From: Bacteroidales bacterium
Lineage (GTDB): Bacteria; Bacteroidota; Bacteroidia; Bacteroidales; P3
Length of the DNA stretch: 59,442 nucleotides
Assembly: GCA_017483575.1 (NCBI GenBank)
Contig: JAFUWF010000008.1
Span: 1 to 59,442 of the forward strand
Direction of reading: 5' to 3'
The notes under the pieces are model-generated. The model did not search any database. It was not told the DNA's origin and saw only the letters and a list, made by a program, of their open reading frames with translations. How positions within the stretch are numbered: the stretch's first letter is position 1; every line of letters starts with the position of its first letter. Made by a program: the position numbers and the translations under genes. Shown one piece after another: positions 7,210-57,413 of the stretch.

Positions 7210-7366
7210 CAAACAGGCCCCAAATACGGCCCATGTCATATAGTATTCATATACTTCTCATATAGTATTCATATACCATATATAAATACTATATGAGAAG
7301 TATATGAATACTATATGTATACTATATGAGAACGGTCGAATAAGACACCCCTTGGAGGCCTGTTTG
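7210..7366 (-). repeat. 11-bp phased inverted-repeat element R1
   Basis: Core 7237-7334. It is made of consecutive 11-base units (ATATAGTATTC, ATATACTTCTC and variants). The left arm 7237-7274 is a near-perfect reverse complement of 7280-7317, giving a stem of about 38 bp, and more units follow to 7334. Outside the core CAAACAGGCC (7210-7219) pairs with GGCCTGTTTG (7357-7366). Read on the minus strand it begins CTTATTCGACCGTTCTCATATAG-like, shared with R2 and R3. It lies between the 3' end of the T9SS gene and the dpp7 promoter. Confidence 0.85.
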
Positions 7367-7389
7367 AGAGCTGCGGATGGACGGGTGGG

Positions 7390-10389
7390 CTAGCGGATGA
7401 GGGTGACGGTGCCGATGCCGTCGCGGCGTTCGCCATAGATGTCGGTGAGGTACCAGCGGTAGACGTAGGCACCCTGAGGGACGTGGGTGCCGTCGTGGGT
7501 GCCGTCCCAGGAGATGTTGATGTCGTCGGTGTGCCATACCAGGAGGCCTTGGCGGTTGTAGATGTAGAGTTCGAAATCCTGGGTCTCGAAGGAGGTGTGG
7601 CAGCCGAAGCGGTTGTTGCTCTGCTGGTCGGGGAAGAAGATGTTGGGGAACCAGACGGAGCGTATCTTGGTGACGAAGACGACGGTGGTGTCGGCGCAGC
7701 AGTTGTAGCGGTTGCAGGAGGTCATGGTGACGCTGACGGAGTCCGGCAGGGGGTGGTGGAAGTGGCGTCGGGCGCGCTCGCCGTTGAGGGTGGGGCCGTC
7801 GCTGTATTGCCAGGTGGTGTGGTGGCGGTCGGAGGAGCAGTCGTGGAGGGAGAGCACGGGGTGGTCGTAGTCGATGAAGGAGCGGTTGCTTTCGATGCAG
7901 AGGGTGGGAGGGGGCTCCACACCGACGGTGATGGAGGCAATGACGTTGCCCGTAGCGTCGAGGAGGCTGTAGGTGGTGGTCTGCTCGGGGCGGACGCTGA
8001 TAGGGTTCTGGCCTTGGAGGCTGTCGAGCGACGGGTCGTGCGGCGTGGCGCTCCATAGGTAGGTGTGGGTGCCCGTGGCCGTGAGGACCACCTCCTCGCC
8101 GGGGCACAGGCCCTCGGCGCTGGTCTCGAGGCCGACGGCTTCGTAGCTGACGACGAGTGTGACGACGGAGTCGCAGCCGTTGGCAGCCGTGTAGAGGAAG
8201 CGGTAGGTGCCGGCGAGGGCTATGGCGGTGTCGGCGAAAAGCAGCGTGTCGCCCGCGATGATGCTCCGTAGCAGGGCGCTCTGCGCCGTCGGCATCACCG
8301 TCAGCGTCAGGCAGAGGTGATGGACGAGGGTGTCGTTCTCCTCCCAGCTGGCCCATCGCACCACCGTGCCTGCCGTCGCCGTCTCGCCGGCACGCATTTC
8401 GATGTGCCCCTCGGCGGGCGGGTTGTAGGTTAGCCCGCCGACAGTGAACGTCGCAGGCATACTGTATGCCTCCCCCTGGCAGACGGTGTCGGAGAAGCGA
8501 ATCGTGTCGTGTAGGACCTCCGGCGGCTCGGGGTCAGGGTCGGGCTCGGGGGGCGGTGTTTCGCATCCGAACCCGAGGGAGTATGAATAGCTCTCCCAGT
8601 TGCCCAGCCCGTAGGTGTAGGCCACGAAGGCCCCTTGTGGGTTCTCCACATGGTGTAGCCATTGCTGCGATCCCGCATTGCCGGGTATCAGCCGTATGCG
8701 CCAAACGCGGTAGCGTCCCACGGTGGTCAGCATGTCGGTGGATGACAACGGGGCTCCGTCGACGGTGGTTTGGGAACCCCAGGCGGTGTCGCAGATGATG
8801 TTCAGGAAGTGGCTGTTGCTGGAGATTTCCGTTGTATTCGGCGACACAAAGCGCGATTTCCGTATGCCGTTTTTTACGGGCGGGATGGGGATGGACGAAG
8901 GGTCGCCCGACGAGCCTGCGGTGGCGTAGCTGGTGAGGTAGAGGATGACACACGTGGGCTTGCTGGTGACAATGGTTTTGGCGGCCGTGGTGGGAATCGG
9001 TCGTTCCAAGGACTGGCCTCGGTTGATGATGCCTGTGGGAATGCCGTCGATGGTGACGGAGCAATTGTCTTCGCTGGAGGTGATGCGCACGTAGTTGTTT
9101 CCGTTTTGACCCATGATTCCTGCCACGACGAACTCCGTGCCCCACAGGGTAGGAGGAGTGGCCTGGTCGTAGAGCAGGTCGCTGCCGGAGCCCGAGGTGG
9201 GTACCTGTACGCGCCGGCCTCCTTGGAACATGGCGAAGGGTTTGCCGTTGGAGGAGACTTCCATGCCCGAGAATGACGAATGGTCGCCGTTGCTGATGAG
9301 CATGTAGGCCTGTCCCTGCATGAGGGTGGGTGTGAGGGTGGTGCCGGCGGTGATGGTGGTGCCCTGAATGGCGCAGGGCACGGTCATGGAGAGCACGGTG
9401 TTGTTCTCGGTGGCGACGAATGCCACCTGGGCGCCAAATTCCCATGCGGGGTAGTCCTGCACGATGTATGCGGTGTCGAGCAATGTCGTCGGCAGGACGG
9501 TGGCGATGTCCTGTGTGCCGCGGATGTAGTTGTTGGCGTAGAGCCAGATATCCTCAGTGGAGGTGACGTGGTAGCCTCCGTTGTAGGGGGTTGCAACAGG
9601 GAGGGATGAGTTATCGCCCACAGTGACGGTGCTGAAGTGGTTGTTGGACGATGTCAGCGAGCGGGAGGCAATGGGGGTGTCGCCTTTGGTGATGCTGATG
9701 TTGCAGCCGTCGTTGCTAAGGAGGAAGAGGTCGTGGCTTCCGGGGTTGTAGGAAGCCGTTTCGTGGTAGTTGTAGAAGAAGGTGACCCAGAAGTCGGTCC
9801 CCATGGTCAGAGGGTGTTTGCAGGGATTGGAAGTGGCTCTCCAGGCGCCGATTTCGTCGAGGTAGAGCTCCTGGTTGTAGCTGTTGAGGAGGCGGATGGC
9901 GAGGCGGTGGGCGGTGCCGTGGAGGGCGTAGTAGGGGTGGAGGTCGACGGTGGTACGCTGCCACTGGTTGGAGACGGAGAGGGGGACGGTGTCGTAGGGC
10001 ACGAAGAGGGCGCAGATGTCGGAGGGGGAGGTGAGGGGTGGGGTGTCGGGGATGTAGCCGAATTCCACTTGCGCCGTTTGGCCGTGGAGGTTGGAACCGT
10101 AGAGACGGAAGGAGAAGGTGTCCGGCACCTGGTTCAGGTAGGGCGTGGCGACGACGGTGCCGCTGCCGACGGTGCTGCCGGTGGAGAGGTAGGCGTGGAG
10201 GTCGCTGCGCTGGACGATGGATTGGTCGTTGATGTCGCTCTTGCAGAAAAGCCATCCGTTCACATTGCGGGCCGAGGTGGCGCTGTAGGTGTCCCACTCT
10301 TCGTGGATGGGCAGGTCCACCGTGTCCTGTGCGCAGGCGGTGCCCGACAGCCATGAAAACAAGACGATTAGGACTGATGCATATTGCAT
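7390..10389 (-). CDS. Surface protein with IgGFc-binding-like region and T9SS type B sorting tail
   Basis: A 999-residue exported protein. The start at 10389 (MQYASVLIVLF) gives a clean signal peptide ending in CAQ. The longer frame start at 10443 is excluded because a promoter -7 box covers it. The middle (from GTDFWVTFFYN) resembles IgGFc-binding N-terminal repeats. After an acidic proline linker (PEPDPDPEPPE) come PKD/Ig-like beta modules. The end has the gliding-motility-associated (CHU_C) pattern: FPNIFFPD, YNRQGLLVW, WDGT, PQGAYVY, ending TLIR. Such proteins are exported by the T9SS and fixed to the cell surface. Ligand unknown. A related type B protein is at 49349-51916. Confidence 0.8.
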   Translation of the reverse strand: MQYASVLIVLFSWLSGTACAQDTVDLPIHEEWDTYSATSARNVNGWLFCKSDINDQSIVQRSDLHAYLSTGSTVGSGTVVATPYLNQVPDTFSFRLYGSNLHGQTAQVEFGYIPDTPPLTSPSDICALFVPYDTVPLSVSNQWQRTTVDLHPYYALHGTAHRLAIRLLNSYNQELYLDEIGAWRATSNPCKHPLTMGTDFWVTFFYNYHETASYNPGSHDLFLLSNDGCNISITKGDTPIASRSLTSSNNHFSTVTVGDNSSLPVATPYNGGYHVTSTEDIWLYANNYIRGTQDIATVLPTTLLDTAYIVQDYPAWEFGAQVAFVATENNTVLSMTVPCAIQGTTITAGTTLTPTLMQGQAYMLISNGDHSSFSGMEVSSNGKPFAMFQGGRRVQVPTSGSGSDLLYDQATPPTLWGTEFVVAGIMGQNGNNYVRITSSEDNCSVTIDGIPTGIINRGQSLERPIPTTAAKTIVTSKPTCVILYLTSYATAGSSGDPSSIPIPPVKNGIRKSRFVSPNTTEISSNSHFLNIICDTAWGSQTTVDGAPLSSTDMLTTVGRYRVWRIRLIPGNAGSQQWLHHVENPQGAFVAYTYGLGNWESYSYSLGFGCETPPPEPDPDPEPPEVLHDTIRFSDTVCQGEAYSMPATFTVGGLTYNPPAEGHIEMRAGETATAGTVVRWASWEENDTLVHHLCLTLTVMPTAQSALLRSIIAGDTLLFADTAIALAGTYRFLYTAANGCDSVVTLVVSYEAVGLETSAEGLCPGEEVVLTATGTHTYLWSATPHDPSLDSLQGQNPISVRPEQTTTYSLLDATGNVIASITVGVEPPPTLCIESNRSFIDYDHPVLSLHDCSSDRHHTTWQYSDGPTLNGERARRHFHHPLPDSVSVTMTSCNRYNCCADTTVVFVTKIRSVWFPNIFFPDQQSNNRFGCHTSFETQDFELYIYNRQGLLVWHTDDINISWDGTHDGTHVPQGAYVYRWYLTDIYGERRDGIGTVTLIR

Positions 10390-10440
10390 AAGCCTGATGA
10401 ACAGAGTGTTCGGGTTATGACCATGAGGTGTCATGATTTG

Positions 10441-10472
10441 CAAAGGTACGAAATTTATTTCAGTGGTGCAAA
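10441..10472 (-). promoter_or_regulatory. Promoter that fixes the start of the IgGFc-like surface gene
   Basis: On the minus strand TTTG (10469-10472), 20 bases, then TACCTTTG (10441-10448). The -7 box overlaps the TTG at 10443, so translation must start further in, at 10434 or more likely 10389. Confidence 0.7.
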
Positions 10473-10672
10473 AGTTTTGTGAGAGGAAAAAGTTTTCAAC
10501 AATGGCGTTTATCGAGAATCGGCTTCCAACGGGGATGGACGGACGAGGGGGAGAGGGTTGATTTTCGGGGTTTGGGAAAGTTTTTTTTCGAAGGGATGAA
10601 ACTTTTTTTGCGTTTTTGCGTTTAGGGTTATGAACAACAAAAAATGGTTAAAAAAAACAAATAAGGGAATTT

Positions 10673-10706
10673 TTTGGCAGAAATTGGAAATTTCTTCGTA
10701 ATTTTA
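10673..10706 (+). promoter_or_regulatory. Probable promoter of the dcw cluster
   Basis: TTTG (10673-10676), 22 bases, then TAATTTTAC (10699-10707), 25 bases before mraZ. The same TTTG / TAATTTTAC arrangement precedes recJ (39821-39852). The 10473-10672 stretch before it shows only A/T-rich sequence and no gene. Confidence 0.55.
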
Positions 10707-10730
10707 CAACCTGAAAAATAGTAGGTAAAA

Positions 10731-12186: not shown

Positions 12187-12227
12187 GATTCTGAAACAAA
12201 TAATAGAAATGGTTTAATATATAATGT

Positions 12228-12716
12228 ATGGGAAACAGGTTTAGGGAGAAGGTGACCGAAGAGGGCCTCGACGGGAAAGCCGTCGACAAGAAGGCTGCGG
12301 GAGTCGCTGAGGTTGAAGTAGAGCCCACAGACTCCACTGCCGACGAGCGTCCTGACTCAGGGGAGGATCAAGAAAGCGAGACCCAGCGGAAGGTGGGACG
12401 GTCGGACAAGGTGGCGAAGGGTGTGTCGAAAGTGCTGGGTGGTGACATTTTGGGCGATAGGCTGGTGCTGAGACAAATACCGCTGATGCTGTTGTGCCTG
12501 CTGTTTCTGCTGCTGATTGTGGCGAACCGTTATAAGGTGGAGAGCCTGAGTCGAGAGAAGATTGCCGTCGAAGAGAGAATCAACGACCTGCGAGAAGAGA
12601 GAATACAAATGCAGAAACAATATCAGAAGAGTGTGAAGATTTCGCAGATAGCGGAAGACCTGGGCGAGAGTGGTGTGGGTATTACCAGTGGACCGCCGTA
12701 TGAGATTGAGAAATGA
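12228..12716 (+). CDS. ftsL: FtsL-like divisome protein
   Basis: A 162-residue bitopic protein in the ftsL position. A long charged cytoplasmic part (1-80, Asp/Glu/Lys-rich) precedes one membrane segment (about 85-103, IPLMLLCLLFLLLIV). A short periplasmic coiled coil (REKIAVEERINDLREERIQ) and a tail follow. This matches the Bacteroidetes FtsL type, with a longer cytoplasmic part than enteric FtsL. Expected to act with FtsQ in recruiting FtsW/FtsI. Its stop overlaps the ftsI start (ATGA). Assignment rests on position and architecture more than on sequence. Confidence 0.8.
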   Translation: MGNRFREKVTEEGLDGKAVDKKAAGVAEVEVEPTDSTADERPDSGEDQESETQRKVGRSDKVAKGVSKVLGGDILGDRLVLRQIPLMLLCLLFLLLIVANRYKVESLSREKIAVEERINDLREERIQMQKQYQKSVKISQIAEDLGESGVGITSGPPYEIEK

Positions 12717-12751
12717 AAAATGAGAAAAGAGAAATGAAAAATGAGAAGAAC
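12709..12751 (+). repeat. 7-nt tandem tract at the ftsI start
   Basis: About six units of seven bases (GAAAAAT, GAGAAAA, GAGAAAT types). They span the ftsL stop and the first codons of ftsI, so the FtsI N-terminus is a repeat-derived MKNEKREMKNEKN. Confidence 0.7.
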
Positions 12752-19510: not shown

Positions 19511-19511
19511 T

Positions 19512-22847: not shown

Positions 22848-24239
22848 ATGGAAAACGAAATCATTGTAGGACTCGACATCGGTACCACCAAGATCGCCTG
22901 CTTTGTCGGTATGCGTGGCGAGAGTGGCAAAGTGAAAATTCTCGGCTTCGGCAAGACCGACAGCAAAGGCGTCGAACACGGCGTGGTGAAGAGCGTGACC
23001 GAGACCGCCGACTCCATCCGTCGCGCTGTCGCCGAGGCCGCCGACCAGGCCGACGTCGACATCGACGAGGTCTATGTCGGCATCGCCGGTCAGCACATCA
23101 AGTCGCGCCCCAGTCACGGCAGCGTCATGATCCCCTCCGACCACCGCCTCATCGAGCAGGAGGATGTCGACCGCCTCATTGCCGAGCAGTACAACACCCT
23201 GCTCGAACCCGGCGAGGAGATTATCCACATCTTCCCCCAGCAGTACATCGTCGACCGCGAACCTCTCAGCCGCGAAATCTATCCTGTGGGTGTCGTCGGC
23301 AAGACCCTCGAGGCCAATTTCCACATGGTGACGGCCAACGTCCAGAACCTGCAGTACATCAAGTATGCCGTGCAGGACGCCGGACTGAAAATCAAGGACG
23401 TCGTCCTCGAACCCGTGGCTTCCGCCAAGGCCGTTCTCGACGACAGCGACCGCGACGCCGGCGTGGCCATGGTCGACATCGGAGGCGGCACCACCGACAT
23501 CGCCATCTTCCACGACGGCATCATCCGCCACACCTCCGTCTTGCCCCTGGCTGGCAACGCCATCACCAACGACATCCGCGAGGGCTGCAACATCCTCAAG
23601 AAGCAGGCCGAGAGCCTCAAGGTGAAGTTCGGATCCTGCCTCGTGCAGGCCGTCAGCGAGAACGACGTCATCTCCATCCCCGGCATCCGCAGTCAGGCTC
23701 CGCGCGAAATCTACGTCAAAACCCTCGCCGGCATCATCAATGCCCGCACCAAGATGATTCTCGAACAGGTGGACTACGAAATCAAGCTCTCCGGTTTCGA
23801 CAAGAAGCTTATCGCCGGCGTAACCCTCACCGGCGGCGGCGCCCAGCTGAAGAACATCAAGGAACTCTGCGAGCTCATCACCACCACCGACACCCGCATC
23901 GGCATCCCCAACGAGCACCTCGAACCCGACAGTGTCTCCTTCGCCGAGCTCGCACATCCTATGTATGCCACCGGTATCGGCCTTGTGCTCTTCGGCATCG
24001 AACAGTCGGAATCCGAGCACACCGAGGAACCCGAAGAGGAAGCCACTCCCGTCGACAACTCGCGCGTCGACATCTTTGCCGACATGGGTGTCGAACCCAG
24101 CGAGGACCCCACCCCAGCCTCCCAGGACATCCCCGAAAAACCTGCCAAGAAGGAGAAGTCCAAAGAGAAAAAAGGCAACTTCGAGAAAAAGATTTCCCGC
24201 TTTATCCGGGATGTCTTCAACGAGAGTATCGACGATTGA
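22848..24239 (+). CDS. ftsA: Cell division protein FtsA
   Basis: A 463-residue actin-fold protein that ties FtsZ to the membrane. Phosphate loops GLDIGTTKIACFVG at the start and DIGGGTTDIAI in the second half; adenosine motif LTGGGAQLKNI. A charged linker ends in a basic amphipathic C-terminal helix (ISRFIRDVF), the membrane target sequence. It starts 20 bases after ftsQ. ftsZ follows after 136 bases. Confidence 0.96.
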   Translation: MENEIIVGLDIGTTKIACFVGMRGESGKVKILGFGKTDSKGVEHGVVKSVTETADSIRRAVAEAADQADVDIDEVYVGIAGQHIKSRPSHGSVMIPSDHRLIEQEDVDRLIAEQYNTLLEPGEEIIHIFPQQYIVDREPLSREIYPVGVVGKTLEANFHMVTANVQNLQYIKYAVQDAGLKIKDVVLEPVASAKAVLDDSDRDAGVAMVDIGGGTTDIAIFHDGIIRHTSVLPLAGNAITNDIREGCNILKKQAESLKVKFGSCLVQAVSENDVISIPGIRSQAPREIYVKTLAGIINARTKMILEQVDYEIKLSGFDKKLIAGVTLTGGGAQLKNIKELCELITTTDTRIGIPNEHLEPDSVSFAELAHPMYATGIGLVLFGIEQSESEHTEEPEEEATPVDNSRVDIFADMGVEPSEDPTPASQDIPEKPAKKEKSKEKKGNFEKKISRFIRDVFNESIDD

Positions 24240-24375: not shown

Positions 24376-26025
24376 ATGGAAGAAGACGCAATTTTCACTT
24401 TCGACTCGCCCAAAGGCCAGTCTTCCTACATCAAAGTCATCGGTGTCGGCGGTGGCGGCGGCAACGCCGTCAACCACATGTTCCGCCAGGGCATCAAGGG
24501 CGTTGACTTCATCGTCTGCAACACCGACATGAAGGCCCTCAACTCCTCGCCCGTGCCCAACAAGATCACCCTTGGCGACCTGGGCCTCGGCGCTGGCAAC
24601 AAGCCAGAGCGCGCCCGTCAGGCCGCTCAGGACAAGGCCGACGACATCCGCGACGCCATTTCGCACAACACCCAGATGCTCTTCATCACCGCTGGCATGG
24701 GCGGCGGCACCGGCACCGGCGCCGCTCCCGTCATCGCCGAAATTGCCAAGAGCATAGACCTCGACAACGACGAGAACAAAAAAATCCTTGTCGTGGCCAT
24801 CGTGACGCTCCCCTTCGGCTTCGAAGGCCGTCGCCGCAGCGAGCAGGCCATGGCTGGCATCAAGGAACTCAGCCAGCATGTCGACTCCATCATCGTCATC
24901 AACAACGACAAGCTCCGCACCTACGGCAACCTCCCCATGTCCAAGGCCTTCGCCATGGCCGACGACGTGCTCCTCACCGCCGCCAAGAGCATTGCTGAAA
25001 TCATCACCAACAACGCCTACATCAACATCGACTTCCAGGATGTCAACACCGTCATGGAACACTCCGGCACGGCCCTCATGGGCGCCGGCGCCGGCGCCGG
25101 CGAGAACCGCGCCATCGAAGCCATCACCGCAGCCACCACCTCCGTGCTCCTCAACGACAACGACATCCGCGGCGCCAAGAACGTCCTCCTCTATTTCTCC
25201 TACTCCTCCGAGCACGAGCTCACCATGGACGAGCAGACCGAAATCACGGACTTCATCATCGAGCGCACCGGCAACGACGCCGACTTTATCTGGGGCGCCG
25301 GCATCGACGACGACCTCGGCGACGAGCTCAAGGTCATCCTCATCGCCACCGGCTTCGAGAAAACCACCGTCGTGCCCCAGGAACCCAAGGTCATCGAACT
25401 GCCCAAGGACGAACCCAAGGTGGAAACCGTTGCCGTGGCCAAGGTGCAACCCGCCCCTGCCGCCGCCACCGAGCCCGTCATCATCCACAAGGATGAACCC
25501 GCCCCCCAGCCTGTTATGGATGTCTTCAAGCCCATCGAGAAAATCGCCCCCAAGCCCGCACCTGCTCCCGAACCCGTGAAGCACGTCATCATGCTTGAGG
25601 ACGACGAGCCCGTGGCTGCCGTCCCCGTCGTGAAAACTCCTGCCACACGGACCGACGTCATGGTGGAGGACATCCACCTCGTCGACACCCTCGAGCCTGC
25701 TCCCGCAGCCAAGGCAGAACCCGTCAAGCCCGCTCCGCAGCCTGCCCCGCAGCCCGCCATGCAAGTCAACCCCAATCCCGCCCGCAGCGCCTTCGAGAAC
25801 GACAACGACGTGAAGACCGCCGCCGAGCGTATCGCCTACATCCACAACCTGCTGCGCAACAATGCCAACGGTGCCGACATCGTGCAGCGCATGCCTGCCA
25901 CCACCTACGCCGAGGGCGAACTCTACGAGGGACGCCCCTCCAACTCCCGCGAAGCTTCTTCCTATACTATGCGTGCCGACGGCATCGTGACCAAAAACGC
26001 CTTCTACGACGACCAGCCCGATTGA
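24376..26025 (+). CDS. ftsZ: Cell division GTPase FtsZ with long proline-rich linker
   Basis: A 549-residue tubulin homologue forming the Z ring. The nucleotide-binding domain has GVGGGGGNAVNHM and the tubulin signature GGGTGTGAAPV; the polymerising core ends near residue 330. A Pro/Ala/Glu-rich linker of roughly 190 residues follows, then a short conserved-looking end (NAFYDDQPD). The linker is long even for Bacteroidetes. Last gene of the dcw cluster; its TGA overlaps the ATG of the exporter by one base. Confidence 0.97.
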   Translation: MEEDAIFTFDSPKGQSSYIKVIGVGGGGGNAVNHMFRQGIKGVDFIVCNTDMKALNSSPVPNKITLGDLGLGAGNKPERARQAAQDKADDIRDAISHNTQMLFITAGMGGGTGTGAAPVIAEIAKSIDLDNDENKKILVVAIVTLPFGFEGRRRSEQAMAGIKELSQHVDSIIVINNDKLRTYGNLPMSKAFAMADDVLLTAAKSIAEIITNNAYINIDFQDVNTVMEHSGTALMGAGAGAGENRAIEAITAATTSVLLNDNDIRGAKNVLLYFSYSSEHELTMDEQTEITDFIIERTGNDADFIWGAGIDDDLGDELKVILIATGFEKTTVVPQEPKVIELPKDEPKVETVAVAKVQPAPAAATEPVIIHKDEPAPQPVMDVFKPIEKIAPKPAPAPEPVKHVIMLEDDEPVAAVPVVKTPATRTDVMVEDIHLVDTLEPAPAAKAEPVKPAPQPAPQPAMQVNPNPARSAFENDNDVKTAAERIAYIHNLLRNNANGADIVQRMPATTYAEGELYEGRPSNSREASSYTMRADGIVTKNAFYDDQPD

Positions 26026-26903
26026 TGAACAAGAAACTTATTGGAATTCTTTGCGCCATTGGCGCTGCGGTGTGCTACGGCACCAACCCGTTAGCCCGCT
26101 TCCTATACGCCGAGGGGATGAACATCCCCTCGGTACTCTTTTACCGCTTCGGCCTGGCATGGGCCATCGTGGCCATCGTGATGCTCTTCCGCAAGGAGAG
26201 CCTCCGCGTCAGCCGTCGCGAGTTCCTCACACTCTCGGCCCTCGGCATCCTCTTCATCCTCTCCTCCACCACGCTCTACACCTCCTTCTCCCTCATGCCC
26301 TCGGGCATAGCATCCACCATCCTCTTCACCTATCCCATCATGACGGCGGCCATCATGACCCTCGTCTTCCGCGAACGGCTCACCCTGCTCACCGTCCTCT
26401 CCATCGCCCTCTCTCTTGTCGGCGTGGCCCTGCTGTCGTTCAACGACGACGGCTCCACCTTCAGCCTCCTGGGCATCGTTCTGGTGCTCGCCTCGGCTTT
26501 TACCTATGCCCTTTACATTGTTGTCGTCGACAAAAGCCCGTTGCAGATGTCGTCGTTCAAAATCAATTTCTATGTCCTTTTCTATTGCGCCCTGGGCAAC
26601 GTGGCCTACGCCCTCCTCAGCGGCCAGCCGCTGATGCTGCCGCCCTCGCCAACGGCCTGGTTCTGGGTGTCGTGGCTCGCCGTCGTCCCCGCCATCATGG
26701 CCCTGGTGATGATGGTCTACGCCGCCAAGTACCTCGGCTCCACGCCCACGGCCATCCTCGGCGCCCTCGAACCCATGACGGCCGTCCTCATCGGCGTCTT
26801 CGTCTTCGCCGAACCCTTCTCCCTGCGCCTCTTCCTCGGCATCGTCCTCATCCTCTCCGCCGTCACCATGGTGGTCCTCTCCAAGGCCAAACGCCAGGCC
26901 TAG
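26025..26903 (+). CDS. EamA/DMT-family exporter
   Basis: A 292-residue protein with about ten membrane segments in two EamA halves (first from KKLIGILCAIGAAV, second from LGIVLVLASAFTY; the second half has GALEPMTAVLIG near the end). Drug/metabolite transporter family; substrate not predictable. The ATG at 26025 shares a base with the ftsZ stop, so it is read through from the dcw operon. It ends before the convergent ABC genes and element R2. Confidence 0.88.
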   Translation: MNKKLIGILCAIGAAVCYGTNPLARFLYAEGMNIPSVLFYRFGLAWAIVAIVMLFRKESLRVSRREFLTLSALGILFILSSTTLYTSFSLMPSGIASTILFTYPIMTAAIMTLVFRERLTLLTVLSIALSLVGVALLSFNDDGSTFSLLGIVLVLASAFTYALYIVVVDKSPLQMSSFKINFYVLFYCALGNVAYALLSGQPLMLPPSPTAWFWVSWLAVVPAIMALVMMVYAAKYLGSTPTAILGALEPMTAVLIGVFVFAEPFSLRLFLGIVLILSAVTMVVLSKAKRQA

Positions 26904-26965: not shown

Positions 26966-26988
26966 AAACCCCTGTCAAACAGGGGTTT
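26966..26988 (+). terminator. Perfect hairpin downstream of the EamA gene, part of R2 flank
   Basis: AAACCCCTGT and ACAGGGGTTT pair perfectly (10 bp) around a 3-base loop. No long U run follows, so it may be a weak terminator or a structural part of element R2. R1 has a shortened copy of the same CCTGTCAAACAGG palindrome at 7205-7217. Confidence 0.5.
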
Positions 26989-27014
26989 GATAGGGGTCTA
27001 GTTCGGCCCTTCTA

Positions 27015-27130
27015 ATACAGTATACATATAGTATACATATACTTCTCATATAGTATTCATATACTGTATATAAATACTATATGAGAAGTATATGTATACT
27101 ATATGTATACTATATAAGAACAGTCGAATA
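27015..27130 (-). repeat. 11-bp phased inverted-repeat element R2
   Basis: Between convergent genes (EamA and ABC permease). Read on the minus strand it begins CTTTATTCGACTGTTCTTATATAG and runs through 11-base units (TATACATATAG, TATACATATAC, TTCTCATATAG). It turns at about 27067 and returns as the reverse-complement units. It is nearly identical to R1 along most of its length, with GTATAC replacing GTATTC in several units. Confidence 0.85.
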
Positions 27131-27161
27131 AAGTACTTCTTTGGTGGCTGTTTTTGGGGGG

Positions 27162-29073: not shown

Positions 29074-31108
29074 TGGTGTGTCTTTTGGATATGACGAGGA
29101 GGAGGGTTTCGGCCAGGAGGGCTGCCAGGGCCAGGAGGATGCACCAGTGCCAGAGGGGGGTGCCGCCGTCGCGGGAGCGTATCTCCTGGTCGAGGGGCTT
29201 GGCGGCGTTGCGTACCAGGGAGTAGCCCGGGCGGCCGTCGAGGAGGTCTTCTATCTCGCCGCGCGAGAGGAAGTCGAGCTGCGACTCGAGGCGGGGGTGG
29301 TTGAAGGCGAGGTGCTCGCTGTCGCCGAGGAGGTAGATGCCGTCGGCGGCGAGTTCGCCGTGGAGCAGGAGGGCGGAGCGGTTGCCGAGGCGCCGCAGGT
29401 CGGGGAGGAAGGAGGGGGTGGAGGTTTGAGGGGTGAGGTCGGAGGTGAGAGGTTTGAGTTCGGGAGGGGTGGCGGAGGGGTCGTAGGAGCCCTGGAGGAA
29501 GATGGGGCTGCGGTCGCCGAGGGTGTGGAAGGCAACGGGCTGCGGACGGCTGTAGAGGGCCATGTTGTAGAGCGTGGGGACGAAGAGGGCCTGCGACACG
29601 AAGGAGGTCCATTCGGCGGTGAGGGGCGAGGTGAAGAGGTAGAGGCGGCCGTCGCCGAAGGGTGCGGAGCAGAGCAGGGGGCTGCCGTCGGCGAGGGTGA
29701 TGATGTCCTGGTGCACGACGCCGGTGGCGGCCAGGGTGTAGTGGCCCTGCACGGAGGGCATCTCCATGTCGCTGCTGGTGCCGTTGAAGACACCGCGGTA
29801 GAGGCTGCTCTGGAAGTCGATGGCGGTGGCTTTGGCGGGGCGGCGTTGCCAGGTGGAAAATTGAAAATTGAAAATTGAGAATTGGGGGTTGAGTTGGTCG
29901 GGGTTGACATCGGCGGGGGGAATGATGGCCAGGGTGCCGCCCTGCTCGACCCACGAGGCGAGGGCCTGGGCCTGGCCGGAGGGGAGGTTGCGGGGCTCGT
30001 TGAGGACGATGAAGTTCAGCGCCGAGAGGTCGGAGGGCAGGGGCGTGGCCTGGTAGGCGAGGGCGGAGTCGTCGGCGAAGAGGCGGCGGAGGTTGTCGTT
30101 GGGGGCGTTGCCGTCGACCTGCAGCATCTGGATGCGGCTGCCGGCGAGGAGGGCGAAGTGGTAGCGGTCGTCGAAGGTGATGGGGTAGTCGGTGATGTCG
30201 ACGCTGCCGTCGAGCCATCCGGCGCTGTCGATGGTGAAGCGTAGGGTGGCCTTGGCGGCGGTGCCGGCGGGGATGTCGAGGGTGGCGATGGCGCGTTCGC
30301 GGCCGGCCACGGTGAGGCGTACGGGCAGCTTCTCGGCGTCGGTGGTGCCGCCGTTGCGGATGGTGGCTTCCACGCTGACGCTGCCGCCGACGAAGTAGGC
30401 CGGGGCGTCGAGGCGGAGGGTGTCGATGTAGATGTTGTCGGTGGCCACGCCTTCGAGGGGTACGAGGGTGAAGAAGGCCAGGCTGTCGGCGGGCAGGGCG
30501 TCGAGGTCGGCGGCGGAGCGCTGGAAGTCGCTGACGAGGTAGGCGTGGCGGTTGGCGGCGCCGCTCTGGCGCATGAAGTCGCTCTGGCTTTCGGCCACCT
30601 CGCTGAGGCGGCGGCTGGCGGGGACGATGGGCAGGAGGTCGACGGCGTCGAGGAACTCCTCGCGGCTCAGCCAGCGGTATTCGTCGCCGGTCATGGCGTT
30701 GGAGAGGAGCTGGTAGCGGTCGCCGGGACGGTAGGCGGCGGCGATCTCGCGGGCCTTCTGTTTGGCGGCCTCGAGCTGGGAGCCGTCGCTGGTGCTGTTC
30801 TCCATGGAGAAGGAGTTGTCGAGGTAGACGCTGACGACGGTGGCACCGGAGCGTAGCTGCTGTCCGTTGCCGGGGAGCGAGGGTTGTGCGAAGGCCAGCA
30901 CGAGGAAGACGATGGCCAGGCAGCGCATGAGGAGCACGAGCCAGCGGCGGAGGTTGCTCTGGCGGCGGCTCTCGGTCTGCAGGGCCTCGAGGCGTTCGAC
31001 GTTGCTGAAGTATACCTTGCGGTAGCGGCGGAACTGGAAGAGGTGCACCGCGATGGGGATGGCCAAGGCCAGGAGGCCCCAGAGGAAGGCTGGTGCGGCG
31101 AAGATCAT
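29063..31108 (-). CDS. BatA/vWA-like membrane protein
   Basis: A 681-residue protein starting with the BatA N-terminal pattern (FAAPAFLWGLLALAIPIAVHLF), then a second membrane segment and a von Willebrand A-like part with MIDAS DNSFS. A long extracytoplasmic beta region follows, and a final membrane segment (about 655-675). Bacteroidetes Bat proteins are linked to stress tolerance, but this single-gene form without MoxR is of unknown role. Two 7-nt tracts (29421-29460, 29855-29893) lie within the frame and encode LTSDLTPQTS and FSIFNFQF stretches. Its start is 81 bases after nth. Confidence 0.75.
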   Translation of the reverse strand: MIFAAPAFLWGLLALAIPIAVHLFQFRRYRKVYFSNVERLEALQTESRRQSNLRRWLVLLMRCLAIVFLVLAFAQPSLPGNGQQLRSGATVVSVYLDNSFSMENSTSDGSQLEAAKQKAREIAAAYRPGDRYQLLSNAMTGDEYRWLSREEFLDAVDLLPIVPASRRLSEVAESQSDFMRQSGAANRHAYLVSDFQRSAADLDALPADSLAFFTLVPLEGVATDNIYIDTLRLDAPAYFVGGSVSVEATIRNGGTTDAEKLPVRLTVAGRERAIATLDIPAGTAAKATLRFTIDSAGWLDGSVDITDYPITFDDRYHFALLAGSRIQMLQVDGNAPNDNLRRLFADDSALAYQATPLPSDLSALNFIVLNEPRNLPSGQAQALASWVEQGGTLAIIPPADVNPDQLNPQFSIFNFQFSTWQRRPAKATAIDFQSSLYRGVFNGTSSDMEMPSVQGHYTLAATGVVHQDIITLADGSPLLCSAPFGDGRLYLFTSPLTAEWTSFVSQALFVPTLYNMALYSRPQPVAFHTLGDRSPIFLQGSYDPSATPPELKPLTSDLTPQTSTPSFLPDLRRLGNRSALLLHGELAADGIYLLGDSEHLAFNHPRLESQLDFLSRGEIEDLLDGRPGYSLVRNAAKPLDQEIRSRDGGTPLWHWCILLALAALLAETLLLVISKRHTTHS
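29421..29460. repeat. 7-nt tract inside the BatA-like gene (1)
   Basis: Units GAGGTTT, GAGGGGT, GAGGTCG, GAGGTGA, GAGGTTT at a strict 7-base step, kept in frame. Confidence 0.6.
29855..29893. repeat. 7-nt tract inside the BatA-like gene (2)
   Basis: AAAATTG units (four or five, last ones altered to GGGGTTG). Read on the gene strand they encode QFSIFNFQFS. The same unit is in aroE, in mnmA and in the aroE leader. Confidence 0.7.
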
Positions 31109-32971: not shown

Positions 32972-33020
32972 AAAAATTGAAAATTGAAAATTGAAAATTG
33001 TGTTTTTTTTAGTATTTTTG
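32972..33020 (+). promoter_or_regulatory. aroE promoter made partly from a 7-nt tract
   Basis: Four AAAATTG units (32972-33000) end just before TATTTTTG (33013-33020). The TTG at 32991-32993 lies 19 bases upstream of it. The tract therefore seems to supply the -33 element in several 7-base registers. Confidence 0.45.
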
Positions 33021-33029: not shown

Positions 33030-33764
33030 ATGAAACGGTATGCGTTGATAGGCAAGCGGCTGGGGCACTCCTATTCCCAGCGGTGGTTCGAAGGGCTTTT
33101 CGCCCGGCTCGGACTCATGGACCATACCTATACGTTGCAGGAGATGGCGTCGCTCGACGGCCTGCGGGAGTGGGTGCGGCGCGAGGGTATCTGCGGCTTC
33201 AATGTAACGGTGCCTTATAAGCAGGAGGTTCTTCGCTACCTTGACGCTGTCGACGAGACGGCCGCTGCCATCGGTGCGGTGAACTGCGTCACCGTCGAGG
33301 GTGGCCGTCTGGTGGGCCACAACACCGATGCCCCGGCATTCAGGCAGAGTCTGGAAAATACAGGCTGGCAGGTGAAGCAGGCTTTTATCCTCGGTACCGG
33401 CGGCGCGGCACGGGCTGTGGCCTACGCGTTGAAGCAGATGGGAATTCCCTTCATGTTCGTCAGCCGCAACCCTGTTGGAGAAAACCAGATTGGCTACTAT
33501 CAACTTTCAACTTTCAACCTCCAACTTTCCACTCTATTAGTCAACGCCACCCCCGTCGGTATGTACCCCAACGTCGACGCTATGCCTTTGCCGGAATTTC
33601 AATTTTCAATTTTCAATTTTCAATTCTTATTCGACCTCATCTACAACCCCTCGCCCACGCGCCTGATGCACGAGGTCGCAACCCATGGCGCCCAGACGAA
33701 GGACGGCCTGGAGATGCTGCACCTGCAGGCGGAGATGAACTGGGAGCTATTCCAACAATGTTGA
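33030..33764 (+). CDS. aroE: Shikimate dehydrogenase with two repeat-derived segments
   Basis: A 244-residue enzyme reducing 3-dehydroshikimate. Catalytic Lys in NVTVPYK, Asn/Asp in GHNTDAPAF, nucleotide loop GTGGAARAV, and INATPVGM-like NATPVGM. I chose ATG 33030 (MKRYALIGK) because it lies behind the -7 box. Two 7-nt tracts enter the nucleotide-binding domain: QLSTFNLQLST (33501-33535), just before NATPVGM, and FQFSIFNFQF (33595-33626), just before the DLIYNP strand. The motifs on both sides are intact, so activity is plausible. The 3' end overlaps the convergent gene by 18 bases. Confidence 0.88.
   Translation: MKRYALIGKRLGHSYSQRWFEGLFARLGLMDHTYTLQEMASLDGLREWVRREGICGFNVTVPYKQEVLRYLDAVDETAAAIGAVNCVTVEGGRLVGHNTDAPAFRQSLENTGWQVKQAFILGTGGAARAVAYALKQMGIPFMFVSRNPVGENQIGYYQLSTFNLQLSTLLVNATPVGMYPNVDAMPLPEFQFSIFNFQFLFDLIYNPSPTRLMHEVATHGAQTKDGLEMLHLQAEMNWELFQQC
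33501..33535. repeat. 7-nt tract inside aroE (1)
   Basis: CAACTTT units, five, one altered to CAACCTC, in frame. Confidence 0.7.
33595..33626. repeat. 7-nt tract inside aroE (2)
   Basis: TTTTCAA units (four and a part), the reverse complement of the AAAATTG tract type, in frame. Confidence 0.7.
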
Positions 33765-37807: not shown

Positions 37808-38519
37808 AGGTCGTTAATTAGGTTAAACGCTACGGTGGCATAGAGCGCCGCCGTCTCTGTGCGGAGGCGGCTGGGTCCGAGGCTCACGGGCTGGAAGCCC
37901 TGCTCCAGGGCCAGGGCTATCTCCTCCTCCGAGAAGTCGCCCTCGGGGCCTATGAGCACGACGGCGTCGCGGCCGGGTGTCAGCGCCGAGGCCAGGGGCG
38001 TGCGCGGCTGGTCGGCTTCGCAGTGGGCGATGAGCCGGAGCGCCGGCGTCCCGCCGGCATAATTGTTCAGCCAGTCGCGCAGCCTGACGGCGGGGTTGAT
38101 GCGTGGCAGGGTGAGGTGCAGGCTCTGCTTCATGGCGCTGAGGGCTATGCGCTCCAGACGGTCGGTCTTGAGGAAAGAACGCTCGCTGTGGTCGCAGTCC
38201 AGCAACGTAATCTCGTCCACGCCCACCTCCACGGCCTTCTCCACCAGCCATTCCATGCGCGACGGGTTCTTGGTCGGTGCCACGGCCAGGTGCAGTTTAG
38301 TGGCTTTCCACTTTCCACTTTCCACTTTTCGCTTTCCACCACGCAGGCCCTGTCGTCGGCCGTCACCACGCGGCAACGGTACAGGTGCCCCTGCCCGTCG
38401 GTGACGTTGATGTCGTCGCCCTCGCGCAGCCGTAGCACCCGCACGGCGTGGCGGCTCTCCTCGCTGTCCAGCGTGGCAAATCCCGTGTCTGTTATGTCTT
38501 TACAGTAGAATAGTTGCAT
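37804..38519 (-). pseudogene. rsmE: 16S rRNA m3U1498 methyltransferase RsmE, frame broken at a 7-nt tract
   Basis: Two parts in different frames together make a full RsmE. The N-terminal PUA-like part (38519 to about 38340) starts MQLFYCKDI and includes SRHAVRVLRLREGD. The C-terminal SPOUT domain (38304 to 37804) has AVAPTKNPSRMEWLVEKAVEVGV, LIGPEGDFSEEEI and LGPSRLRTETA. Between them lie five 7-base units (38305-38339). Thirty-five bases leave the second part out of frame; 21 or 42 bases (three or six units) would join them. The tract sits at the interdomain linker, where extra residues should be tolerated. Either a phase-variable OFF state, an inactive gene, or a repeat miscount in the assembly. 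It overlaps DUF4159 (ATGA) and follows mnmA by 7 bases. Confidence 0.85.
38305..38339 (-). repeat. Frame-setting 7-nt tract in rsmE
   Basis: Gene strand: GTGGAAA, GCGAAAA, then three GTGGAAA units. Copy number decides whether the PUA and SPOUT parts are read in one frame. Confidence 0.85.
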
Positions 38520-46818: not shown

Positions 46819-46930
46819 CGACTTTTCCCGCAACTACCGCCCCCTCCGCCCAACAAGTTATCAAAAACCGATTGTTTATTACCCTCCCGCCCAACGCCCC
46901 GAAAACGCCCTCCAAACACCCCCCTGAGAC

Positions 46931-47075
46931 GTGTCTTATTCGACTGTTCTTATATAGTATACATATAGTATACATATACTTCTCATATACTTCTTATATA
47001 TAGTATATGAATACTATATGAGAACTATATGAATACTATATGTATACTATATGAGAAGGGTCGAATCAAGTGGCT
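46931..47075 (+). repeat. 11-bp phased inverted-repeat element R3
   Basis: Read on plus it starts GTCTTATTCGACTGTTCTTATATAG, the same head as R1 and R2 on minus. It goes through TATACATATAG, TATACATATAC, TTCTCATATAC, TTCTTATATAT, then turns into ATATGAATACT / ATATGAGAACT units and ends AGAAGGGTCGAATCAAG. It lies between the promoter of the 1518-residue gene and the 3' end of the broken toxin. Confidence 0.85.
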
Positions 47076-47100
47076 GTTATATAGGGCTTTTCTACACATT

Positions 47101-51937: not shown

Positions 51938-52046
51938 CTGTTTAACTTACCTCTTACCTCTTACCTCATACCTCATACCTCTTACCTCTTACCTCATACT
52001 TCTTACCTCTAACCTCTTACCTCATACTTCTTACCTCTTACCTCTC
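51938..52046. repeat. 7-nt CTTACCT tract, about 15 units
   Basis: The longest 7-base tract in the window. Units CTTACCT, CATACCT, CTAACCT and CATACTT cover the gap between the flippase and the T9SS gene and form the last five flippase codons and its stop. Confidence 0.8.
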
Positions 52047-53536: not shown

Positions 53537-53661
53537 GCCTGTATTTTTCCACCCCTAACGCAATTTCCTTTTTTTTATTGTATGCGAACATAAAAAAAAC
53601 ATGCCTTTGCACGCACATGGGGGAATCCCTGCGAAATTTTTTCTCGTAAATTGAAAAAAAA

Positions 53662-56600
53662 ATGTATTTTTGTTTTCGAAAAAAATATTATACAACAATT
53701 TATCTGTATGATGACCAGTATTTTACCCCCCCCCATTACAACGCGGAAGGCGATAATGCCCTGCTACGGCATGACGTAGAGAGAAAAACAGTCCTGTGTG
53801 CAGTGGCGTTTTTGTTGTCCATTGCCATGGGTTTCAGAACCTCGGCTCAAACACCCATCTATTCGGTTTCCGACCTTGCCGCCATCGACGGCAGCAGTGC
53901 GTGGTATGTCATCCAGGGCGACCTCGACGTCTCGTCGCTGGCCACCATTGCCACCTTCGACGGCACGTTGGAGGCGGCCATCAACCCCGCGACCCACATG
54001 CCCTACCGTCTCACGGGCCTCACGCAGCCCCTCGTCGGCACCCTCACGGGCACGGTGCGCAACCTGGTGCTGGAGGCTGTCGCCATCAGCGGCCACAGCG
54101 GCAACACCGGCGCCGTGGCCTGCACCGCCACCGGCGCGGCACGCGTCTACAACGTGGGCATACTCAGTGGCTCCATCGGCGGCACCGCCTACACCGGTGG
54201 CCTGGTGGGCGCGCTGGGGGCCGACAGTTATGCCCGCGTGGTCAACTGCTACAGTTTCGCCACCGTCACCGGCGGCACCACCGTGGCAGGCATAGTGGGT
54301 TACAACCCCACCCTCTCCAAGCAAAACAACACTGGCGGCCTGAAGACCATGATTGTGAACTGCATGTTCTACGGCGACATCACCGGCGGGACGACGAAAT
54401 ATCCCGTCTATGGCGGCATCAAGCAGAACAACGCGGCCAACGACGGCCTCAACAACTACAACTACTTCCTCGAGTCGGCAGCTACCTTCGACGTGAGCTA
54501 CAGCAGCCTCGACAACTACAATCTGGCGTGGCCGGTCAAAGAGGAACGCCTCACCCGATTCGAGGTCTACCGCAGCATACTGAACAGCAACCGTCGCCTT
54601 TGCACATGGTGGGTGGCGGGCACCTACGGCACCTGCCCCACCGACGCCGAAGTGGACGAGGTAGGCATTGCCAAATGGGTGCTCGACCCGGCCGTGGCGC
54701 CCTACCCCGTCCTCAAGGAGTGGGGCAAATATCCGTCGGTGGTAAACATCGACCCCGAGCGAGTGTGGAACCCGCAGACCAAGGCGTGGACCAACCGCAG
54801 CAGCGCCCACCCGTGGGAAGGACGCCGCCTCGGCACCCTGGCCGTCACCGTCAAGGCCGGCACGCACCACTCGGCCTCCCACGTGGAGAAAGACCTCGTG
54901 ATTACCGACATGGACACCCTCGGCAGCGATTACTGCTACGGCAAGGTGCAGCTGCCCTACTACAACGAGGTCTTTGGCAACCCCGCAAGCGGCGACCACC
55001 TTGTGCGCTACGTCGACAACTACACCGACAGCGTGGTGACAGGCTGGAAGGTGACCGCCGTGGACCACCACGGCACCACATCCTTCGAGGCACACTGGGA
55101 GCACGGCTACAACTTCGCCGACCCGCACTGCACCGGCAAGGACCTCTACGACACCAGCGGGCGTGTCTTCGCCCAGGGCGGCTACTATTATGTGCCCGTC
55201 GGCGTCGAAGCCATCACCATCGAGGCCTACTGGGGCAAAGCCGTCTACCTGCGCGACAACAACCAGCGCATGGACCGCGTCAACAACGGCAACGCCGACT
55301 TCACGGCCGGCGGCGCCCTGCCAGCCTTCGGCCCGGCAGGCAGCCCCTATACCATCCAGACCAGCCTGGCCAACGCCGTGGCCCAGCTGGCCGTGCAGCC
55401 CGCCAAGAGCGTCTACGACCAGGCCATTGTCCTGGTGGGAAACTATCAGCAGAACAATTTCCACAGCAATATCAAACTCGAAGGCAACAAGTACAGCACC
55501 GACGCCAAGCCCTTCACCATTATGAGTGCCGACCTCGATTTCGACAACGAGCCCGACTTCTGCTTCCAGGCGGGCATGAGCGGCGGCGGACGCGAGAACG
55601 TGCAGCCCATCAGGTTCGACTTCCTCTTTGTACCCGACATCACGTGGGCCATTCGTACCGACGGCAACTACTACGGCATGCGTATTTTCTGCCTGCAAGG
55701 CCACTTCGAGGTCACTGAGACCTCGTACATGTACACCACACAGTTCGAGTACGACAAGCGCGACAACGGCGGCTACGACAAACACGAGGCGCCCCTGATT
55801 CTCAACGGGGGCGAGTTCGAGCAGATAGTGTCCACCGAGGGCAGCATCATCACCTATGTCGACCGCACCTCGTACATCATTGTCGGCGGACGCCTGTGGA
55901 TGAAGGCCTTCACCCCCGGCACCCACGGCAACCGACAGGTCAAGACGCGCCACTGCGCCGTCAATGTCATCGGCGGCGAGTTCCCCGAGTTCTACCTCAG
56001 CGGCATGTTCCGCTCCGACTTCTACAACAATACCGACAACCCCCACTGCTACACCTACGGCGGCAAGATAGACCTCATGGCCGGCGCCGGCATGGAGAGC
56101 GTGGGCGCGCAGAACGAGACCAACGGTGGCGACGTCACATTCCAACTCAACCACTCCCTGATCCACGAATTCTACGGCGGCGGCATCAATGCCCTGCACC
56201 CTGTGACGGGAAACATCGAGGTCTCGGCCGACTACTGCTTGATACACAAATACTGCGGCGGCCCCCGCGCCGGCGACATGACTGCGGGCAAGCACATCAC
56301 CAACCATGCCACCGGCACCACCTTCGGCGTCTTCTACGGCGGAGGCAACGGCGGCAACAGCAAGCTCCGCGTCAGAAAATACGACAGCAACGGCAGTGCG
56401 GCTCCACCGTCCGAAAACACATGGAACACCACTGGTCAGTTCAATGGTTTCGCTCCGTTCGCCTATAATGCCACCAACGGCTATCAGGCAGAATACGAGT
56501 TTGAGTTGCTACCTTACCCCAGTGGAAGTGTCAACGTCGTTATCCGTTCCTACGGCTGGTGGTACAACTTCGCCAAGACCTCCGTGGCCCCGGTCACCAC

Positions 56601-57246
56601 GACGCTCGACGACTGCACCGTGCGGACCAACTTCTACGGCGGCGGTTTCCTCGGCGCCGTGGTGGGCGACATCAGCTCCACCCTCACCGACACCCGCGTC
56701 CTCGGCAACGTCTACGGGGCAGGCTATTCTGCTTCGATACCGACTTTCCCCGTCCACGACAAATCCACCGTGCAGTATGCCTACGTCGACAAGGCCAACT
56801 ACATACACGACGGGTCGCTCGACTACGCGAAGTATTCGGCTGACGACGAATACGGCCACCATGCCGGCGACACCATCCAATACATGTGGTGCTACAAAAA
56901 CGGCGACGTCGTCATCCCCGAAGGCGTAGTGGTCCCGGCAGGTGTGAACACCGGCAACCCGACGTTCCTGTACAACGGCCAGTGGTATGTCGTCACCAAT
57001 ACACCCCTGCAGGACCTCGGCACCGTGCAGGGCACCGTCACCCTCACCATCGAGGGAAATAGCAGGATAGGCACTGTCGTGGGCGACGAGGATTCGGGCA
57101 ACGTTTTCGGCGGCGGCGACCAGAGCAAGGTCGACGGCAGCACCTCCGTCATCCTCCGTGGCAACACTAATGTCCGTGGCAACGTCTACGGCGGCGGCAA
57201 CCATGGCTCTGTCTCCGGCAACTCCGCCGTCCTCCTCGCCGACTGA
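53662..57246 (+). CDS. Large exported GLUG-like surface protein, probably truncated; start uncertain
   Basis: A 1194-codon frame. A signal peptide lies at about residues 42-63 (KTVLCAVAFLLSIAMGF, ending TSAQ), so the first 40 residues are unlikely to be coding. A C9 tract (53726-53734) lies before it. ATG ATG at 53708-53713 would read into the signal peptide only with ten or seven C. The mature part has GLUG-type segments (GGLVGALG, AGIVGYN), long beta-rich domains, then late glycine repeats (NVFGGGDQ, GNVYGGGNHG). In such proteins these usually continue much further and end in a T9SS tail. Here the frame stops in a repeat at 57246, with no sorting tail visible, just before element R4. Function unknown; adhesin-like. 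Confidence 0.65.
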   Translation: MYFCFRKKYYTTIYLYDDQYFTPPHYNAEGDNALLRHDVERKTVLCAVAFLLSIAMGFRTSAQTPIYSVSDLAAIDGSSAWYVIQGDLDVSSLATIATFDGTLEAAINPATHMPYRLTGLTQPLVGTLTGTVRNLVLEAVAISGHSGNTGAVACTATGAARVYNVGILSGSIGGTAYTGGLVGALGADSYARVVNCYSFATVTGGTTVAGIVGYNPTLSKQNNTGGLKTMIVNCMFYGDITGGTTKYPVYGGIKQNNAANDGLNNYNYFLESAATFDVSYSSLDNYNLAWPVKEERLTRFEVYRSILNSNRRLCTWWVAGTYGTCPTDAEVDEVGIAKWVLDPAVAPYPVLKEWGKYPSVVNIDPERVWNPQTKAWTNRSSAHPWEGRRLGTLAVTVKAGTHHSASHVEKDLVITDMDTLGSDYCYGKVQLPYYNEVFGNPASGDHLVRYVDNYTDSVVTGWKVTAVDHHGTTSFEAHWEHGYNFADPHCTGKDLYDTSGRVFAQGGYYYVPVGVEAITIEAYWGKAVYLRDNNQRMDRVNNGNADFTAGGALPAFGPAGSPYTIQTSLANAVAQLAVQPAKSVYDQAIVLVGNYQQNNFHSNIKLEGNKYSTDAKPFTIMSADLDFDNEPDFCFQAGMSGGGRENVQPIRFDFLFVPDITWAIRTDGNYYGMRIFCLQGHFEVTETSYMYTTQFEYDKRDNGGYDKHEAPLILNGGEFEQIVSTEGSIITYVDRTSYIIVGGRLWMKAFTPGTHGNRQVKTRHCAVNVIGGEFPEFYLSGMFRSDFYNNTDNPHCYTYGGKIDLMAGAGMESVGAQNETNGGDVTFQLNHSLIHEFYGGGINALHPVTGNIEVSADYCLIHKYCGGPRAGDMTAGKHITNHATGTTFGVFYGGGNGGNSKLRVRKYDSNGSAAPPSENTWNTTGQFNGFAPFAYNATNGYQAEYEFELLPYPSGSVNVVIRSYGWWYNFAKTSVAPVTTTLDDCTVRTNFYGGGFLGAVVGDISSTLTDTRVLGNVYGAGYSASIPTFPVHDKSTVQYAYVDKANYIHDGSLDYAKYSADDEYGHHAGDTIQYMWCYKNGDVVIPEGVVVPAGVNTGNPTFLYNGQWYVVTNTPLQDLGTVQGTVTLTIEGNSRIGTVVGDEDSGNVFGGGDQSKVDGSTSVILRGNTNVRGNVYGGGNHGSVSGNSAVLLAD
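53665..53672 (+). promoter_or_regulatory. Possible -7 box for the large surface gene
   Basis: TATTTTTG at 53665-53672, overlapping the most upstream ATG (53662) of the following frame. If used, translation must begin further in. The 53537-53661 stretch before it shows no gene. Confidence 0.35.
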
Positions 57247-57261
57247 CGTCCTTCCGACCCC

Positions 57262-57413
57262 CACCCGATAGGTACCCGGTTGCTCCGTTCTCATATCGTT
57301 CTCATATCGTTCTCATATACTTCTCATATACTTCTCATATACAGTATATGAATACTATATGAGAACTATATGAGAACGATATGAATACTATATGAGAACG
57401 GTGCTATCGGGTG
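57262..57413 (+). repeat. 11-bp phased inverted-repeat element R4
   Basis: Core 57285-57399. Units CGTTCTCATAT (three), ACTTCTCATAT (two), a turn at ACAGTATATG, then ATATGAATACT, ATATGAGAACT, ATATGAGAACG, ATATGAATACT, ATATGAGAACG. Outer CACCCGATAG (57262-57271) pairs with CTATCGGGTG (57404-57413). The flank differs from R1-R3 but the unit grammar is the same. It lies between the large surface gene and the EF-G2-like gene. Confidence 0.85.

Follow-up and report, generated by a model that had tools for sequence, protein, structure and literature searches.

What are the four near-palindromic stretches that lie dispersed between the genes of a 59,442-nucleotide contig of a Bacteroidales bacterium (GenBank assembly GCA_017483575.1, contig JAFUWF010000008.1)? 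The whole contig, referred to below as the window, was read directly, and all four places were found to be near-palindromes made of contiguous 11-bp units, just as the original prediction of dispersed intergenic elements with exact 11-bp units on inverted arms had it. Elements of this kind recur through the genome at evenly spaced sites that are shared with a sister species, and in related lineages the 11-bp step is kept in units that are spelled differently. The reading favoured here, tentatively, is that they are DNA-level arrays to which a predicted protein would bind along one face of the helix, and that they mark chromosomal domains.

Build of the elements and their number in the genome

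The elements of the window are the following, the strand being set by the side on which the conserved end AGAACRGTCGAATAA is found.

7189..7365, + strand: element R1, about ±88 bp about the dyad; conserved end AGAACRGTCGAATAA at right; inner arms 7237-7275 / 7279-7317
26977..27153, + strand: element R2, in the convergent gap after eamA; arms 27002-27064 / 27066-27128
46914..47090, - strand: element R3, conserved end at left; arms 46938-47000 / 47004-47066
57255..57431, strand not assigned: element R4, built of the same units but with different outer ends; arms 57274-57342 / 57344-57412

The predicted places were right, and R4 does combine the same units with other ends; the elements are longer than had been supposed, the 11-bp phase continuing to about ±88 bp. 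Within each element the units abut without spacers and then switch to their reverse complement, the arms spanning 39-69 nt. The unit TATATGAGAAC, with at most one mismatch allowed, has 18 matches in the window, all of which fall within the four elements (0.19 expected from shuffles). A repeat-family search placed the four elements in a single family of 173 nt with inverted arms, the other three being 67-81% identical to the reference copy.

The window makes up all of contig C27 in the draft genome to which it belongs (G000; 1.96 Mb, 77.7% complete). Searching this genome with a 22-mer that spans two units gave 72 forward matches and 73 reverse ones, and the reversed control gave none. A search for the conserved-end motif, the R4 copy and one copy truncated at the start of contig C25 bring the total to 74 distinct sites, so that the family is not confined to the four copies first noticed. 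Two extra patterns derived from R4, which deviates most among the four window copies, matched only known sites in G000. Contigs C9, C13, C21, C25 and C29 of G000 start or finish in or right beside an element; such repeats probably break the draft assembly.

Of these sites 55 were extracted with their flanks, and two of them, with a shifted or even centre, were excluded from the alignment and from the identity comparison. The remaining 53 copies, all with a regular center, can be aligned without gaps. Each copy is about 176 bp long and proceeds in exact 11-bp steps, with about eight units on each side of the dyad. The inner 40 positions per side are mostly fixed; the arm bearing the conserved end is fixed to about position 66, and the opposite arm is more variable. 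The phase runs outward through the C-rich units AAACCCCTGTC AAACAGCCCCC AAATTCGACCC, and the information content of the aligned copies reaches background by about ±88 bp.

Spacing, inherited sites and respelled units

The 74 sites of G000 define 50 intervals within contigs, with a minimum of 7.9 kb, a mean of 21.5 kb and a coefficient of variation of 0.47 (positions rounded to about 0.05 kb). A single interval is shorter than 8 kb, compared with 17 expected from uniform placement, for which the coefficient would be 0.94, and none of 20,000 simulations was as even. If the sites are instead drawn from real intergenic gaps of 100 bp or more, the expectation is 14.5-14.7 intervals below 8 kb, a figure obtained with a set of 49 intervals. 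The uniform-placement test gave the same result on 49 intervals, with contig C13 and the copy at the start of C25 omitted, as on the 50 that include both.

Even spacing is also found in G029, whose elements are built of other units. Its 98 elements define 82 intervals; among the 80 tested, three are shorter than 5 kb (17-20 expected) and 11 shorter than 8 kb (25-29 expected), and the coefficient of variation is 0.73 rather than 0.92-0.94 (P 0.001-0.003). In the intergenic-gap version of the test each G029 contig was taken to end close to its last element. The exclusion zone of G029 is narrower than that of G000. The G029 list is incomplete, 7 of the 19 sites on contigs C1-C3 having come from a second list alone, which covers the contigs through C4, and the true minimum distance may therefore be less than 3.3 kb; random thinning alone cannot make a random set even. 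In a 60-kb sample of G012 the arrays, drawn from four families of units, are all separated by 4.0-8.6 kb (P 0.001 for 8 sites; the spacing was tested because it looked regular).

The sites themselves are inherited. The flanks of 30 elements from the congener G007, a sister species, were compared with 19% of G000. For 14 of these elements a flank could be mapped at 70% identity or more, and at 13 of the 14 the facing G000 gap holds an element, R3 being one case (its orthologous site is occupied by the G007 element L402). Counted by flanks, 16 of 17 face a G000 element, against a baseline of 0.35-0.38 (P 2e-6). The two flanks of one G007 element (L401) map to two separate G000 element sites. The sharing of sites with G007 speaks against recent transposition.

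The letters follow a different course. Mean identity between copies is 0.907 within G000 and 0.881 within G007 (24 of the 30 elements could be centred there, some of them containing N), compared with 0.657 across the two species and 0.663 for orthologous pairs (9 of 11 pairs usable). Orthologous copies are thus no more alike than random cross-species copies, which is concerted evolution at fixed sites: the addresses pass from ancestor to descendant, and the letters evolve together within each genome.

Farther away the spelling changes altogether. The G000-type pattern is present in only three of 61 genomes, namely G000 (200 and 208 matches), G007 (52 and 44) and G019 (2, part of a different array); the backward control of the pattern has 2 matches in G000, 5 in G015 and 3 in G019. 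Congeners carry hairpins whose arms are made of other 11-bp repeats: TAGTATTACGG and AGTTCAACTTG in G012, TTCTCCCATAT in G017, GTACAGTACTT and ATCAACGATAT in G025, and TGTTCTTCGAT in G029. A sample of 2.06 Mb, taken from congeners and from relatives close in FtsA, contains 60 arrays of period 11, compared with 3, 2 and 0 for periods 10, 12 and 13; named loci and genomes may overlap in this count, so that some arrays are possibly counted twice, and stretches consisting mostly of N were skipped. In the same sample there are 84 arrays of period 7 and 20 of period 9. Outside the genus (0.68 Mb) no period-11 array was found, and periods 7 and 9 account for four arrays and one. Unit sequences are often unrelated between lineages, some units being common to several species, and several arrays in relatives are purely tandem, with no inverted arm.

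Several side observations concern these arrays. At L069:110-218 (G019) there are 11-bp units of the form TATATG-N5, in tandem only and with no inverted arm. A weak G-rich 11-bp array of a different unit lies at L265:7183-7235 (contig C26 of G000), at a distance of about 340 bp from sequence matching a flank of the G029 element L384. Period 7 is the second common period in the genus, and some 7-bp arrays form hairpins with an A-rich left arm and a T-rich right arm; in the window, tandem arrays of 7-bp units (TTACCTC, AAAATTG, TTTCAAT and others) are found at 51946-52045, 12707-12747, 29856-29891, 32973-33000, 33597-33625 and 38304-38335. Arrays of 9-bp units such as TTAAGGTCC make up a third, weaker period (L172:14383, L191:16132, L052:16644 and others). 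In the viral collection the sole exact match to the G000 grammar is a contig that has, in a gap between phage genes, four 11-bp units in tandem, TATATGAAAAC (L419:5000-5060); this array differs from the G000 elements.

The gap occupied by R2 can be followed across species. It lies downstream of two genes that were used to locate it in relatives.

22848..24239, + strand: ftsA (Pfam FtsA), the query for the region orthologous to that of R2 in named relatives
26025..26903, + strand: eamA, an EamA-family gene (Pfam EamA) adjoining ftsZ; its 3' gap is the orthologous site compared across species

A scan with FtsA gave 70 named loci, of which 44 (64-93% identity) were treated as near relatives; many of their record titles name rumen or other ruminant-gut samples. 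Of the 44 loci, 43 contain ftsZ and 42 contain eamA, which is cut in one of them. A clear period-11 array stands within 300 bp 3' of eamA in 12 of the 41 loci in which that gene is nearly complete. A thirteenth match, in L196, is a run of G, although a G007-type element, partly masked, does lie there in this locus, and L160 has a G000-type element after eamA that is cut by the contig end. When called gaps of at least 100 bp in the same loci are compared, arrays occupy 10 of 20 post-eamA gaps and 6 of 111 others (Fisher P 3e-6, which is not a strict probability as the loci are kin). The flagged units are all different apart from those of L161 and L162. On the strand read after eamA, many units are rich in C.

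Competing explanations

The main rival that remains is neutral. The elements would be old intergenic repeats homogenized by gene conversion, kept apart because close pairs recombine and delete genes, and the 11-bp step would be a product of copying. Sites shared by descent and letters homogenized within a genome require no function, and selection against near repeats could produce an exclusion zone. However, neutrality leaves unexplained why the period should be 11, and not 10, 12 or 13, in unrelated unit families, and why the gap after eamA should be filled with unrelated units in different lineages. On balance this explanation appears unlikely.

It appears improbable that the elements act in RNA where transcription units end, be it as a hairpin, as a terminator or as a site at which Rho loads. 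R2 folded as RNA gives -83.5 kcal/mol (z -13.7), its arms being strongly self-complementary. The Rho-loading model calls for YC every 11 nt, which the C-rich units after eamA bring to mind, and the arrays of L172 and L173 resemble a hairpin followed by a T-rich stretch. Against this stands the gene context, for which genes were called by a simple, purpose-built codon model. Both neighbours were called for 52 of the 55 extracted copies (three lacked a called neighbour), and these lie in 25 tandem, 20 divergent and 7 convergent gaps. A common role that needs transcription of the element is thus argued against by the 20 copies between divergent genes, and with it the large 3'-end hairpin of the original prediction and the intrinsic terminator. 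No T-run was found beside the arms of the four window elements. Several arrays in relatives have no inverted arm, and some units, those of L181 and G012 among them, have a polarity opposite to that of the C-rich units, which, with the divergent sites, also speaks against Rho loading. The only Rfam matches in the window are two tRNA-Leu genes.

For 10 divergent sites, 19 neighbour proteins were submitted to Pfam: 18 of them match a family, two only below the curated cut-off, and both neighbours do so at 9 of the 10 sites. They include TsaD, a queuosine enzyme, a class I tRNA synthetase, peptidyl-tRNA hydrolase and SecA. As a background, the gaps of 100 bp or more in a 139-kb portion of G000 that was read whole comprise 23 tandem, 10 divergent and 3 convergent ones. 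The orientations around the copies resemble this background, so that the copies track intergenic space and not gene ends. Their centres are mostly 70-180 bp from stop codons and mostly at least 160 bp from start codons.

A mobile element of the repetitive extragenic palindrome (REP) or miniature inverted-repeat transposable element (MITE) kind, the copies perhaps being spaced by target immunity, would be dispersed, intergenic, palindromic and numerous, as these elements are. It is nevertheless a decidedly poor candidate. The sites are common to G007 by descent, and nothing in the plasmid collection matches the element. The ends are gradual: no sharp ends or target duplications could be seen by eye in 53 aligned flanks, and this, together with the 13 shared sites, speaks against a MITE or transposon. 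REPs are described as 20-40 bp long (PMC3733652). Like REPs, bacterial interspersed mosaic elements (BIMEs) and REPINs, the present elements are dispersed intergenic palindromic repeats with a lineage-specific sequence; they differ in being about 176 bp long, in their 11-bp steps, even spacing and sites shared with a sister species, and in that some genomes with arrays are devoid of a Y1 transposase. No Y1 match was found in the array-bearing G017, G019, G026 and G029 (97% complete), and a REP or REPIN with a Y1 (RAYT) transposase is rejected on these grounds. G000 has three Y1 matches, two with no element in the surrounding 6 kb and one about 2.3 kb from a copy.

Very little likelihood is given to a DNA-wrapping or gyrase site, in which helical phase alone would matter and the letters would be free. 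Such a site would explain free letters at a fixed step. One report describes an extended gyrase motif with phased 10-bp G/C variation, and a gyrase that favours and binds BIME-2 in Escherichia coli (PMC6379681). In 34 units picked by eye, however, there is no clustering of G/C towards one side of the turn (0.32, compared with 0.35 expected; P 0.86), so that curvature or wrapping through phased G/C is unsupported, and copies within a genome are far more alike than a requirement of shape would make them. A CRISPR array, already set aside in the original prediction, is at odds with units that abut and then turn into their reverse complement. A dialect of DNA uptake sequence, whose single units would be scattered through the genome and occur in genes too, is rejected by the confinement of all 18 unit matches of the window to the four elements.

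The favoured reading and its significance

A one-face binding protein fits best, because it accommodates at once repetition in tandem at a fixed one-turn step, letters that are free, the dyad, even spacing, inherited sites and placement independent of orientation. According to this reading, a lineage-specific protein would occupy neighbouring units along a single face of the helix, on both mirrored arms. As an oligomer with one contact per helical turn, it would build a nucleoprotein block at the borders of transcription units, and such blocks may mark or hold the boundaries between chromosomal domains, a role that seems preferable to ordinary gene regulation. The units might be rewritten through gene conversion among copies, through co-evolution with a protein of changed specificity, or through both; the data do not separate these. 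Of the ideas first put forward, that of a protein-binding or nucleoid-structuring site has thus fared best: unrelated arrays keep the 11-bp step, spacing is even, and a sister species has the sites in common. The conditions under which the original prediction would have fallen, absence of the elements from relatives or loss of the 11-bp step in other copies, turned out not to hold.

Known systems offer partial likenesses. The parC repeat of plasmid R1 is 11 bp long. A ParR dimer is described as binding one parC iteron, the dimers forming a superhelix, and the iterons of plasmid R1 stand in two clusters (PMC5016525). The resemblance lies in clustered tandem iterons that are split in two; parC, however, is one locus per plasmid beside parMR, whereas here inverted arms are found at 74 sites on the chromosome, and the Pfam-named neighbours include no partition genes (no genome-wide search for ParM or ParR was made). 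CarH is reported to bind one face of tandem 11-bp direct repeats, three to four of which are present at a carotenoid promoter with the consensus nnnnTnnACAn (PMC9304148). Tandem 11-bp direct repeats are common to both, but the present elements have up to eight units per arm and are mirrored, genome-wide and free in sequence. The 11-bp periodicity of bacterial genomes, which one account gives as commonly read as the pitch of negatively supercoiled DNA (PMC4132750), has the same step; it is a statistical bias in nucleotide frequency, and not a series of discrete repeats of whole 11-mers. The likeness to a matS-like domain marker rests here on spacing and sites, the binding of an architectural protein being predicted.

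Several observations weigh against the binding-protein reading. The protein is a prediction, for which no candidate was sought. Coverage is uneven, contig C26 of G000 (213 kb) having one known copy. The relative nearest in FtsA, L159, lacks an element at the R2 site, where the gap is only 32 bp. An exact-match list of 23 sites in G012 shows no minimum-distance effect (P 0.24), but its variation is lower (0.48 compared with 0.76, P 0.014). When the units belong to unrelated families, site sharing as judged by flanks does not reach significance (9 of 17 flanks in G029, P 0.15; 3 of 4 in G012; joint P 0.056), so that sharing in these cases is only suggestive. Finally, pairing between the arms over offsets 1-66 is 53.91, compared with 53.38 (sd 0.15) when permuted, and none of 2000 permutations was as high; the excess is small, and is what a hairpin or cruciform predicts.

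The cruciform of the original prediction therefore survives in part. The arms are strongly self-complementary, and unit 3 is exchanged on both arms jointly: offset 30 is paired in 0.89 of copies (0.50 expected) and offset 41 in 0.62 (0.42 expected). Other arm mismatches, however, are conserved in nearly all copies, such as C.A at offset 7 in 48 of 53, and the purely tandem arrays of relatives have no second arm with which to pair.

REP/BIME elements, MITEs, terminators, CRISPR arrays, uptake sequences and gyrase-type phasing all differ from these elements in one or more of the features tested. In the open-access literature, which leaves aside subscription journals and preprints, no such element was recognized by title or abstract opening among the matches listed. 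What is conserved is the length of the step and the chromosomal addresses, and not the sequence, so that repeat finders based on sequence would report many unrelated small families. Even if the elements are neutral, concerted evolution at fixed, evenly spaced sites in a bacterium is notable. A further and more speculative possibility is that they are a bacterial counterpart of the fast-evolving centromere satellites, that is, domain markers whose positions and step are inherited and whose units are rewritten along with a fast-evolving binding protein. If they do mark domains, the spacing of bacterial chromosomal domains would be readable from sequence, and the genus would present a natural experiment on the replacement of a genome-wide recognition code, with a spelling of its own in many species.

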